Assembly (NCBI GenBank): GCA_029879735.1
Contig: JAOUPS010000009.1
Location: forward strand, 1-35,914
Direction of reading: 5' to 3'
Length of the DNA stretch: 35,914 nt
From: Candidatus Bathyarchaeota archaeon
GTDB lineage: Archaea; Thermoproteota; Bathyarchaeia; Bathyarchaeales; Bathycorpusculaceae
Shown here: piece after piece, positions 27,190 through 30,710 of the stretch
Layout: each line of letters opens with the position of its first letter
How positions within the stretch are numbered: position 1 is the first letter of the stretch
Position numbers and translations under genes: made by a program
Notes under the pieces: generated by a model
Database searches by the model: none
What the model saw: the letters and a program-made list of their open reading frames with translations, nothing else
Told to the model about the DNA's origin: nothing

Positions 27190-27648
27190 TCAAAATGGCT
27201 TCGCCCTCCATAATCTAACAGTTTCAATCCAAAAAACAAGTGATGCAATCGAGCCGAACATGACGACGTAAAAGCTGGGAATTACTTGGCTTAAGGTACA
27301 CAAGATCAAATAAGCTGTTAGCATTGTGGAAAACAAAACTGAATAGAAAAGATATCTGGGTACGAGAAAACGGCCCATGCGTGTGAAAAACCGTAAAATT
27401 CCAACTTTAACTTCTTCTTCAAGCACGAATTCACCTGTCCCCTTTTTCCGAACAAGCCCCAAATCCTCTAACTTTCCAAGATGATGCACAGCAATGCTTG
27501 GGCTGGAAAAGCCCAAAGCACGCTGAACTTGACGAACGCCCACGGTATGTGTGGGTTGCTGTAACAAGTACCAGTAGATAAGGAGAGTTTTCCCTTTCAA
27601 CGCGGATTCCAGAACAGCTAAATCAAACTCACGCGAAGCCTTCGACAC
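27190..27648 (-). CDS. Winged-helix regulator with C-terminal transmembrane helices
   Basis: The product has 152 residues from a GTG start. The first ~75 residues form a winged helix (KTLLIYWYLLQQPTHTVGV, RALGFSSPSIAVHHLGKLED, LGLVRKKGTGEFVLEE). Two hydrophobic helices follow (about 98-118 and 122-143), with a basic tail. This is the archaeal layout in which a DNA-binding domain is tethered to the membrane. A TATA-like element (TTTATATTC on the minus strand, 27671-27679) about 24-30 nt upstream implies a near-leaderless mRNA. It is probably an operon with the downstream small membrane protein. Confidence 0.7.
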   Translation of the reverse strand: MSKASREFDLAVLESALKGKTLLIYWYLLQQPTHTVGVRQVQRALGFSSPSIAVHHLGKLEDLGLVRKKGTGEFVLEEEVKVGILRFFTRMGRFLVPRYLFYSVLFSTMLTAYLILCTLSQVIPSFYVVMFGSIASLVFWIETVRLWRAKPF

Positions 27649-27848
27649 AAAGTATCGCCAAATACCTCTTTAGAATATAAACATTATAAAAGCCTTAATT
27701 CACTAGAACGCAAAAAACAGCAAACGCGTGAAGTCAATGCCGTCCGAGTAACTCTGATTGCTCAGTCTTCAATGGGTGAGTAACTCCTTATTTGTCATTC
27801 ACCTTCAGCTAATTTGTGTGCGCGTTTAGATGAGAAGAAGGGAGAAGT

Positions 27849-29621
27849 TCAGCCTTGTTGATTCTTTCTGTATTTGATGAAGACCGGGGTGATTAGTGAA
27901 AGAATTATGAATAGTGGTAGGATTATGGCTGATGGGAATTCTGGGACTATTATTATTTCAAGCGTCGAATGTTCATATCTGAAGTATATGATGCTGAAAG
28001 TTTCGTTTTCGAATACAGTGTTGTATATCACTGGATCATGGTTGACTGTTATGTTATAGAGAGGACGCAATAAATCATGAGGAATCGTGAGTCTGCAAAA
28101 GCCACAAGTTTGACCTGGAGTCATGTTAGAAACATACATTCTGATCGTGCTATCAGACTCAAGACATTCGAAGTAATTTATGGTGGAGTTGGAGATAACG
28201 CTTACATTATATTTCGGGGCAGTGTTTGCTGTGTGAGACATGCCCATGAGCGGATAGTTGTCCGTATAATTTGCATCGATGACACACGGGACATCTGCTA
28301 TTCCATCACTATCTGGCTCATTCTGATAACGCCCCCTGTGCAAATCCACACCTGTGTAATCGCTCCAATAGTTTCCGCCTGAAGGATAACCGTTGTCCCA
28401 CGCGTTCGGATGCCATGAATCGGTAGCTGACTTGTATACTATCTGTCTGTTATCGATAAAATTGTTATGGTAAAACCGATTATTGTAGGTGTAACCACGC
28501 AGGCCGATAGCATAATAAATAGTGTTGCTTATGGTGTTTTGTGCGAAAGTACTATTGCAACTGTCGTACAATCGTATGGCGATGTCGTTCTGGTTAAGAT
28601 TGTTTTCGAAAATGATACAATCAGAGCAATATCTGAACTGAATTGCAAAGTTGTTCTTTTTCATAATATTTCTTGAAAATGTGCAGTCATCCGTAGAATC
28701 TGACAAGATACCATTGTAATTTCCGATAATAGTGTTAAGAGAAACAATTGTATCGTTGGAGCCTATTTGTATACCACTGAAACCGTTTTGGACGGTATTA
28801 TTTATTACTAAGTTTCCTTTACCGGACATACCTACAAAAATACCACAATATTCATGTACATTATAGAAACCAGTTACAACATTGTCGCTTATAACACAAT
28901 TGCTACCCTCTACAGAGATTCCCTCAAACTCGTTCGCTGTTATGATATTTCTAAAAATTGTATTATCGTTTGAAGTCTCGTGAAGCAAGATGCCGTGCTC
29001 ATTGTTTACTATGTTGTTCCGAGAGATGCTGTTATTCGAAGAATACAGACCTTGAATGCCATTTATTGCGTTTGCAGTTATGTTATTCTCGAATACTTTG
29101 TTGTTTGAAGAATACCTGAAATAAATACCATTTTCATTGTTTGTCATGTTATTCCCAGAGATTGTGTTGCCCGACGAATGCCAAAGGCGGATACCATGTA
29201 TCTTGTTTGCTGCTATGATGTTTCGATACAATTTGTGGTCTGAAGAGTCCTCCAGAAAGATGCCATACCAGAACCCTTCAATTCTAATATTCTTAATTGT
29301 CACATTTCGAATTCCAAAAAGGTAGATTCCTTTGGAATCATGACTTTCTGTTCCATGAAGGGTGTAGTTATTTCCATCAATTATTATGTTGCTCCTCTCA
29401 ATCACAATCTCGTCATAAATGTTATCAGTAAAAACGTAGGTGACATTGTCAATGTTCGAAATGGGAGTTGTTGGTGGATCAATACACCCGTCATACCTAA
29501 TGTATATGATTCCGCTTGCTTCAACTGTTTGAATCTCAAAAGCTAATCCTATTAGAAACGCTGTGGATAACAAGCATGAAATTGCAAAGAAAGTCAAAAA
29601 AGTATTATTCAAATTGAACAC
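27849..29621 (-). CDS. NosD-like right-handed beta-helix surface protein with PEF-CTERM-like anchor
   Basis: The product has 590 residues. A signal peptide (1-35) is followed by about 14 rungs of a parallel beta-helix (pattern N-x-I-x-x-N-x-I/G-I, for example ENGIYFRYSSNNKVFENNIT, TIFRNIITANEFEGISVEG), as in NosD/pectate-lyase-like carbohydrate-binding domains. A cap (GNYWSDYTGVDLHRG...DGIADVPCVIDANYTDNYPL) recurs in archaeal NosD proteins. A ~110-residue beta domain comes next, and then VPEFPSAIILPLFIILSLI with a KYRKNQQG tail. That tail resembles the archaeosortase PEF-CTERM signal. Many N-x-S/T sites suggest glycosylation. It probably binds polysaccharide at the cell surface. Confidence 0.8.
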   Translation of the reverse strand: MFNLNNTFLTFFAISCLLSTAFLIGLAFEIQTVEASGIIYIRYDGCIDPPTTPISNIDNVTYVFTDNIYDEIVIERSNIIIDGNNYTLHGTESHDSKGIYLFGIRNVTIKNIRIEGFWYGIFLEDSSDHKLYRNIIAANKIHGIRLWHSSGNTISGNNMTNNENGIYFRYSSNNKVFENNITANAINGIQGLYSSNNSISRNNIVNNEHGILLHETSNDNTIFRNIITANEFEGISVEGSNCVISDNVVTGFYNVHEYCGIFVGMSGKGNLVINNTVQNGFSGIQIGSNDTIVSLNTIIGNYNGILSDSTDDCTFSRNIMKKNNFAIQFRYCSDCIIFENNLNQNDIAIRLYDSCNSTFAQNTISNTIYYAIGLRGYTYNNRFYHNNFIDNRQIVYKSATDSWHPNAWDNGYPSGGNYWSDYTGVDLHRGRYQNEPDSDGIADVPCVIDANYTDNYPLMGMSHTANTAPKYNVSVISNSTINYFECLESDSTIRMYVSNMTPGQTCGFCRLTIPHDLLRPLYNITVNHDPVIYNTVFENETFSIIYFRYEHSTLEIIIVPEFPSAIILPLFIILSLITPVFIKYRKNQQG

Positions 29622-29932
29622 AGCGCATTATTTCTTGTATTCTCAAGTTCTTAACAGCGCGCGAAGTTATGATTTATGAATTAGAAATAAATATTCGAAA
29701 GTCTTCAACGCGCGAGGGGCGTAAGGTTCAACGTTATGAGTTCGGTGTTTGAAGCATTACAATGTAATCTTCTAACATCTACTTGACAGTGCGCGCTTTG
29801 ATTATCGACATGAGAAGGCCCAGAGGAAATAGGTGATTCCGCGCGCGCTCTACTTGCGTAGCTTCTTAATGAAATCTTCTCGCACTAGACAGAATATGTC
29901 AAGCGCGCTACCGAATAACAACATCTATCAAG
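29622..29932. other. Gene-free region rich in GCGCGC tracts
   Basis: No coding frame is supported. Five alternating GC tracts lie at 29656, 29709, 29791, 29840 and 29903, plus a GCGCTCTAC element at 29845-29853. Confidence 0.45.
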
Positions 29933-30103
29933 CTATGTCCAGTAAAGAAGTACCACACCGACAATGATCAGGATTATTCCAGCTCTTCCAAAAATCGTAA
30001 GGGTTATTTCGCCCAAACTCATTTTCATTTTAGGAATTGCTGAACCACAAATTCCCAGGAAAGCAAAGATTATGCCTACTATTACTAATAGTGATCCGAA
30101 CAT
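29933..30103 (-). CDS. Small two-helix membrane protein (56 aa)
   Basis: The ATG at 30103 opens a 56-codon frame ending in TAG at 29933-29935. It reads MFGSLLVIVGIIFAFLGICG, a basic turn with PKMKMSLGE, and a second helix (ITLTIFGRAGIILIIVGVVL) ending YWT. The two helices and a positively charged cytoplasmic loop are convincing for a real small membrane protein. No family is recognised. A purine-rich AAAGTGGA precedes the start. Confidence 0.55.
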   Translation of the reverse strand: MFGSLLVIVGIIFAFLGICGSAIPKMKMSLGEITLTIFGRAGIILIIVGVVLLYWT

Positions 30104-30710
30104 TGTTGTTCCACTTTGAATTGTATTTTGGAGGTATATAAACAGCTTGCGTAATGTCGTATGCTAAATTCTTTTTAACGCGCGCTGCCTTTTCCAAGTT
30201 TGAAACATAGAACATGATGCTGTCAATTTTGAGCAAAACATTCATAAATTCCAAATGAAACTGCAGTCATGTAAAGCGAGCGCTCTACATCCATAACATG
30301 CACATAACATGCACGCGCGAACTATAAGTCGATGTTAGTGAGAACAGCAGTCTCTGTAATCTGTGTTGTTACGTCTTGCCGATACCGAACGACGTGAATT
30401 TTAAGACATATCCCAGAGGATCGGTCAAATCAACGTTTCATAGTGGCTGTGCGCGCGCTGAACTCTAGTGCCGTCCGAGTAACTCTGAGATTTCATCCCT
30501 TTAGTGTCAAGCTAATGCCTTCTCATCATCCGGCGAAAAATCAATAAGCAAAACCGAAAATAAAAATGTTCTTAAATTGTGATCGTCATGTTTGCATCGT
30601 GGAGGCCCCGGGTTCAAATCCCGCCCCGTCCACCAAACCATTTTGAAAAACAATAAGCACTCAACATAAATTCTCCAACCAAAAAAGTAAATTAAACTGA
30701 TACGAGAATA
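30104..30710. other. Gene-free region with GC tracts, tandem repeat and tRNA fragment
   Basis: Beyond the tRNA-Ala fragment and one copy of the 20-nt repeat, this ~600-nt stretch holds GC tracts (30179, 30314, 30451), a GCGCTCTAC element (30280-30288) and a tandem duplication of ataacatgcac (30293-30314). I see no gene in it. Confidence 0.5.
30586..30635 (+). pseudogene. tRNA-Ala(TGC) 3' part: anticodon arm to CCA
   Basis: The order is: anticodon stem TCATG, loop TTTGCAT (T33, anticodon TGC, A37), stem CGTGG (two G-T pairs), AGGCC variable loop, CCGGG-TTCAAAT-CCCGC T-arm, CCCGTCC acceptor strand, A73, encoded CCA. This matches an archaeal tRNA-Ala from position 27 on. No D-arm or 5' acceptor strand (GGACGGG or a wobble variant) lies in the preceding 250 nt. 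It is most likely a truncated gene or an integration scar. Confidence 0.6.

Follow-up and report, generated by a model that had tools for sequence, protein, structure and literature searches.

The 3' end of a single-copy box C/D guide small RNA (sRNA) gene is, with high probability, the attachment site (attB) for tyrosine-recombinase elements in one order of the Bathyarchaeia. The gene lies in a stretch of 35,914 nucleotides (nt) from Candidatus Bathyarchaeota archaeon (contig JAOUPS010000009.1 of assembly GCA_029879735.1, forward strand), which is analyzed here over its whole length and referred to as the window, its genome carrying the handle G000. The attachment core is duplicated in the window, relatives possess an empty site, outer half-sites in different genomes continue into arms with common motifs, and in one relative, G136, an intact integrase gene adjoins the core.

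The core, TGCCGTCCGAGTAACTCTGA, is present in exact copies at 27738-27757 and 30469-30488 on the plus strand. This pair is the sole exact 20-base repeat in the window, and the identity extends by 0 nt on either side. When up to three mismatches were allowed, the window contained two matches, compared with 0.00 expected from 100 shuffles, and the whole genome (2.14 Mb, 156 contigs, 91% complete) did not contain any others. The first-pass annotation had seen the identical 20-mers bracketing a NosD-like gene and a small membrane protein open reading frame (ORF), and had taken them for att-type scars of an integrated cassette. This interpretation proved right, as relatives with a single repeat copy and without the segment exist, the flanks of the window align with them once joined, and the intact integrase of G136 sits at the homologous site. 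Recurrence of the repeat at many loci had been put forward as an objection; the repeat does recur across genomes but not within one, and most of the motif-bearing relatives have a single copy. What had been overlooked is the nature of the repeat, which forms the 3' terminus of a conserved box C/D guide RNA gene. The right copy, the inner attachment core, forms the 3' end of an intact sRNA gene, while the left copy, the outer core, consists only of the 3' guide, box D and stem of such a gene, displaced but still where the ancestral sRNA stood, next to an ArsR-like gene.

The intact gene is 66 nt long and occupies 30469-30534 on the minus strand, as judged from a comparison of 79 distinct copies, an alignment of 14 and complementarity to 23S ribosomal RNA (rRNA). 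In the direction of the minus strand the aligned copies, with window coordinates in parentheses, are composed of stem GCCGG, box C ATGATGA (30523-30529), the first or D' guide GAAGGCATTAG (30511-30522), box D' TTGA (30507-30510), box C' GATGAAA (30491-30497), the second or D guide TCAGAGTTACT (30478-30488), box D CNGA (30474-30477) and stem CGGC, and in the window 30469-30473 pairs with 30530-30534. Boxes C and D adjoin this closing stem in the window and in the 13 other copies aligned, and the aligned copies describe an element of 60-79 nt. For counting, 137 loci were collapsed to 79 distinct full sRNA sequences. All 79 retain boxes C and D together with the second guide's core, and 78 retain the first guide, a retention that arises partly by construction because the pattern used to pick the copies demands these parts. 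The pattern does not demand the two internal boxes: box C' (NATGANN) lies within 4 nt of the D guide in 79/79 copies, 76 of which read GATGANA, and box D' (T[TC]GA) was found near the first guide in 76/79. A TATA-like promoter motif, located at 30556-30566 on the minus strand in the window, begins 30-32 nt upstream of the sRNA in 60 of the 79 copies; it was found in none of them within the next 60 nt, and 50 shuffles gave a mean of 2.3 and a maximum of 5.

When at most one mismatch to its degenerate form is allowed, 131 of the 162 genomes in the order have the core motif, and most of them have it once. Some of these 131 may be chance matches or other guide RNAs because flanks were read in only 62 genomes. 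With a stricter pattern, 73 of a first set of 100 relatives carried the motif. Contigs of GTDB-220 yielded 68 motif loci, 67 with full copies and one cut by a contig end, and all of their titles name Bathyarchaeota, Bathyarchaeia or a Bathyarchaeia genus, barring four less specific archaeal titles. An Rfam scan of the window placed no family on the sRNA, either at the gathering threshold or by E-value. In three genomes of one genus (L024 1501, L025 1501 and L028, minus strand, 3121) a long hairpin ending in GTTTCTCGGAC, possibly a terminator or the end of another element, adjoins the 3' end of the sRNA.

The ancestral arrangement of the locus is apparent from its left neighbor. The helix-turn-helix (HTH) gene at 27190-27648 on the minus strand is called ArsR-like in a loose sense only, because its HTH matches fall below curated cut-offs. 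Collapsing 139 loci by identical flanks left 80, of which 22 have a gene of this kind on the left of the sRNA with the same orientation; the other 58 are without an arsR match, many of them with only about 1.5 kb of flank. The gap between arsR and the sRNA core measures 50-59 nt in six of the 22 and also in one further locus, which is cut by its contig end. Counted from the arsR-like gene of the window, the full sRNA is 2,820 nt away and the outer core about 90 nt, near the ancestral place, with about 35 extra nt between the arsR promoter region and this core. The left copy thus takes the place that the intact sRNA holds in insert-free relatives, and therefore 27758-30468, a segment of 2,711 bp absent from relatives with short arsR-sRNA spacing, is an insert in the 3' end of the sRNA gene. 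The joined window flanks align through the junction to the three empty sites tested, with overall identities of 79% (L065), 86% (L047) and 85% (L046) and identities beyond the junction of 79%, 91% and 91%, respectively; the unjoined sequence fails to align past the core. The alignment with 86% identity, and with 91% past the junction, is that to G024 and comprises 623 aligned bases. G056 is 94% identical to G042, which has an uninterrupted sRNA, along the 1,498 nt that lead to the core, and the similarity runs about 11 nt past the core before it stops.

Outer cores without an sRNA body were found in six genomes belonging to six genera, namely G000 (the window), G069, G056, G136, G041 and G040. 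Note that five of them were found by the missing sRNA body and that of G040 by a core-like match beside an arsR-like gene; none was found by its arm. In G069 the outer core is 1.8 kb from the full sRNA copy. The 30 nt beyond the core were then scored with leave-one-out matrices. The P' arm of the window, TTGCTCAGTCTTCAATGGGTGAGTAACTCC at 27758-27787 on the plus strand, ranked 1 of 71,770 with the matrix from the five other genomes, and the ranks for G069, G056, G136 and G041 were 2/37,944, 1/9,242, 1/23,944 and 1/12,342, respectively. Smaller matrices do worse: the window P' arm ranked 2 with three genomes and 19 with two (of 71,768), and the outer arm of G069 ranked 17 and 8. An inner (P) arm resembling AGTTTATCAT, the reverse complement of part of the outer arm, is found next to the intact sRNA, at a distance of 3-4 nt from the core, in G136, G022, G032, G146, G015 and G069. 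The six were selected by eye on the strength of the motif itself, which biases the leave-one-out p-value for the P arm; L137 and G040 served as independent checks, and L137 (taken as G030 because the coordinates are identical), which is outside the P-arm matrix, scored equally high. In the P-arm table, seven of 78 loci exceed the 1-in-1000 score: L137 and five of the six training loci do so clearly, and L025 marginally. G022 is missing from this table, its sRNA being equal to that of G040. In seven empty sites the P arm was not the top match (best ranks 94 to 4,082). Altogether, 12 genomes show at least one sign (G000, G069, G056, G136, G041, G040, G146, G015, G032, G022, G030 and G009), a number that is not a prevalence because double hits or contig ends partly guided the selection of loci. 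Mobile DNA has used this sRNA gene repeatedly as a landing site, much as it uses transfer RNA (tRNA) genes. G041 has a further segment of about 570 nt between the host gene and the outer core (L082, minus strand, 6042), 285 nt of which are shared with G009 at 72%; repeated insertion at the same site is the likely origin. The insert of G069 (L026 8456-10236) carries a HicA toxin-family gene (PF07927, 5.7e-19) whose neighbor gives a sub-threshold HicB-like match, and the two were read as toxin-antitoxin cargo.

The recombinase is best seen in G136, where an intact and uninterrupted gene for a 462-residue tyrosine recombinase (PF00589) begins at a distance of about 20 nt from the sRNA. Its R, HxxR and GH...Y motifs at residues 180-335 are presumably the catalytic residues. 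An integrase of the SSV (suicidal) type, whose gene contains attP and is split by integration, was considered and dismissed, as the G136 gene is an uninterrupted frame beside the core. The outer core of G136 is on another contig, together with genes for a 983-residue protein carrying a DnaG-type zinc finger and for a DUF433/DUF5615 pair, and the two contigs probably represent the two ends of one element. Next to the sRNA, G146 and G009 have decayed pieces of this integrase, interrupted by four stops and one stop, respectively. Members of this integrase family presumably also made the insertion in the window.

The anatomy of the locus suggests how integration may proceed. The attachment core of the element (attP) would duplicate the final ~20 bp of the sRNA gene, comprising guide, box D and closing stem, and recombination would take place in the core, which can be written as the near-palindrome TCNGAG-TAA-CTCTGA. 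The element would thereby be placed downstream of the sRNA body, a complete sRNA would be regenerated from the core of the element, and the displaced 3' end of the host gene would be left as a half-site at the far end, as at tRNA genes. Since the site carries an rRNA-complementary guide, selection for ribosome methylation would hold the landing site constant across the order.

Several observations weigh against this picture. The window segment contains no integrase, as the first-pass annotation had already remarked, and contig C99 gave no match to PF00589; although 11 PF00589 matches are present on other contigs of the same genome (91% complete), none of its proteins is a relative of the G136 integrase at E <= 1e-4. 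The inner arm of the window lacks the P motif (best rank 21,141 of 71,798). In G040 the outer arm is weak (rank 122/5,982) and the inner arm falls under the 1-in-1000 score, yet the latter ranks 6/6,010. A free attP form was not found in viral contigs: the attP search gave one match, L096, by eye in a coding frame and without an sRNA body, and none of three stretches from the integrase search was confirmed. In other long arsR-sRNA intervals the outer core was mostly undetectable (combined p = 0.38 for 15 scored loci, one more lacking an anchor), and several of these intervals hold ordinary-looking genes that differ by lineage. With regard to the guide, a second match to the rRNA target discussed below lies outside rRNA genes in G134 and G020, and no large-subunit (LSU) rRNA gene was found in these two genomes or in that of the window. 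The idea that every long arsR-sRNA interval is an element was rejected on the grounds of the mostly invisible outer core and the ordinary-looking genes, and change in gene order accounts for some of the intervals. A protein of about 400 residues, peptidase-like by eye, is encoded in long intervals of three lineages.

In principle, the outer copy could be the decayed relic of a tandem or dispersed sRNA duplication that occurred without an integrase, genes having been shuffled in between. The re-use of the same guide in other C/D-like RNAs of the order (L072, L076, L077 and L080) and the long integrase-free intervals in several genomes would fit such a history. Outer copies nevertheless break off close to one and the same base, what follows is in five of six clearly a common arm and not the sRNA body, the outer copy of the window occupies the ancestral sRNA position with the full gene at the far end, and the integrase of G136 is intact and adjoins the sRNA, so that we regard duplication as improbable. 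That both copies are functional, the outer one as a second guide RNA or as a regulatory element of the arsR-like gene, deserves even more skepticism. Its core is unmutated in the window (20/20) and the arms are conserved among genomes, but by eye neither box C nor the pairing partner of its stem half is present. Empty sites have no such copy and carry the intact sRNA in that place, and in G040 the copy is mutated. We consider this very improbable.

Direct repeats around a short segment with a single clear gene might also be the target-site duplication left by one insertion of a transposon or casposon in the sRNA. Six genomes from six genera share this core and its position, which makes such an origin unlikely, and the linked recombinase is a tyrosine integrase; we give the possibility hardly any credence. 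Paralogous protein ends had been offered as an alternative reading of the repeat by the first-pass annotation, and both copies do encode SELLGRH followed by a stop on the minus strand. No gene is supported there, though. The columns that vary (1, 8, 10 and 11) fall on first or second codon positions of the frame, and it is 23S complementarity that accounts for the sequence, which brings the probability of a protein-coding origin close to nil. Integration at the 3' end of the sRNA gene thus remains our preferred explanation.

The guides themselves point to the large ribosomal subunit. Six genomes were searched for 23S targets and an LSU gene was found in three of them, G006, G135 and G145. In each, AGTAACTCTGA, an 11-nt perfect complement of the second guide, is present within the 23S gene. 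Reversed guides gave 0-2 matches per genome, so the 11-mer alone is weak evidence; all three 23S matches, however, fall at the same place, beside a match to the first guide. When aligned to E. coli rrlB, the target of the second guide corresponds to 1909-1919 in helix 69 (H69), and the first guide pairs with E. coli 1937-1944. Methylation is directed by the fifth guide base upstream of box D, and the predicted methylation sites are A1913 for the second guide and A1938 for the first (E. coli 23S numbering). The sRNA is presumably expressed and would methylate 23S rRNA at these two bases. Neither the small-subunit rRNA loci nor the 18 tRNAs that were scanned provided a consistent or convincing guide target, respectively. 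The same H69 guide occurs in C/D-like RNAs that are built differently (L076 6064; L080, minus strand, 5999; L077 6030; L072, minus strand, 2906), some of them with a different first guide, which suggests guide shuffling. Helices 68-71 of 23S rRNA are a known hotspot of archaeal methylation (PMC7994747, PMC4644070). As far as the accessible portions of these two papers go, archaeal C/D sRNAs directed to helices 68-71 resemble the sRNA described here in that they guide to the H69 region, with a hotspot around E. coli A1912. The sequence of the window type differs from them in that it was found only in Bathyarchaeia-type records and in that no Rfam family reaches the threshold in the window.

The insert in the window contains one clear gene, for a NosD/beta-helix surface protein and possible cargo (27849-29621, minus strand; PF05048 2e-43, PF13229 1.2e-38). 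A possible 56-residue membrane protein is encoded at 29933-30103 on the minus strand, as an ORF only and with no NCBIfam or Pfam match. The sRNA-side end (29622-30468), which corresponds to the position of the integrase in G136, is mostly non-coding and contains neither an integrase gene nor the P-arm motif; it is dense in GCGC/CGCG words, with 39 per kb compared with 0.6 in nosD and 4-5 elsewhere in the window. Of the features of a tyrosine-recombinase element, the segment thus has the duplicated att core and the empty site and lacks an integrase gene of its own. Because the integrase is absent, we refer to it as a remnant rather than as a full member. Most likely, it is a fixed, integrase-less remnant that has kept the NosD-like protein gene and is without the inner arm. 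It is possible that an integrase acted on it in trans, and NosD presumably belonged to its original cargo rather than being acquired later.

Beyond the inner core, 30586-30635 contains the 3' part of a tRNA-Ala(UGC) gene with a full anticodon arm and a C-C mismatch in the T stem, which was not called by ARAGORN. A tRNA-Ala 3' fragment about 100 nt past the right copy had been noticed before, and by reading the sequence we find that it starts 98 nt beyond that copy; as partner of the att pair it had to be abandoned, as it lies outside the repeat pair. For the same reason, and with the 20-mer outside the called tRNAs, a tRNA-targeted element was dismissed. ARAGORN located an intact Ala(UGC) gene elsewhere in the genome, on contig C83, and in G026 and G043 the sRNA has a full tRNA-Ala gene beside it, so that the fragment suggests a decayed neighbor gene and looks like a separate relic. 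With the intact gene on C83, the fragment was also rejected as one half of a needed split tRNA.

If guide RNA genes can be landing sites, there are consequences beyond this order. Archaeal mobile elements have been mapped largely through tRNA genes. The genes for sRNAs are seldom annotated in uncultured genomes, and for this reason elements residing at them would be filed as intergenic or missed. We raise tentatively, and with more doubt than conviction, that guide RNA genes of the box C/D and perhaps also the H/ACA type form a general, overlooked class of archaeal integration sites. If so, unannotated sRNA genes would underlie many of the att sites classed as 'intergenic', and the activity of integrases at them would explain why archaeal C/D sRNA genes are found duplicated, displaced or flanking broken genes. 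Within the Bathyarchaeia, the sRNA 3' end can serve as a marker for locating elements. Our literature search, mostly without subscription papers, returned no C/D sRNA gene recognized as an archaeal attB.

The closest known counterpart is integration into tRNA genes. A review of archaeal tyrosine recombinases lists tRNA genes, intergenic sites and protein-coding genes as targets in its accessible part (PMC8371274). As with the tRNA genes described there, the target is a conserved RNA gene whose 3' end is duplicated and which is regenerated upon integration, and the integrase gene abuts the att site, here in G136; the difference lies in the target, which here is a box C/D guide RNA gene. The core of 20 bp compares with 40-60 bp for several archaeal groups and with as little as 8 bp, according to the same text (PMC8371274). 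Of 68 sites mapped in a survey of Thaumarchaeota, 39 are in tRNA genes, 15 are intergenic and 14 are in protein-coding genes (PMC6563490). The thaumarchaeal elements share short att repeats verified by empty sites with those described here, while a guide RNA gene is not among the targets in the accessible text of that survey (PMC6563490). In Nanoarchaeum equitans, C/D sRNA genes flank split genes and the basis of mobility was left open (PMC3491384). The likeness to our case is that C/D sRNA genes flank displaced gene pieces, but the available part of that study describes neither an integrase nor an att half-site, and the sRNAs were proposed to move, whereas here the sRNA gene is the landing site (PMC3491384). 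Features of C/D sRNA gene mobility were considered still to be discovered (PMC7994747, accessible part), and an sRNA gene that acts as attB offers a concrete mechanism for it.

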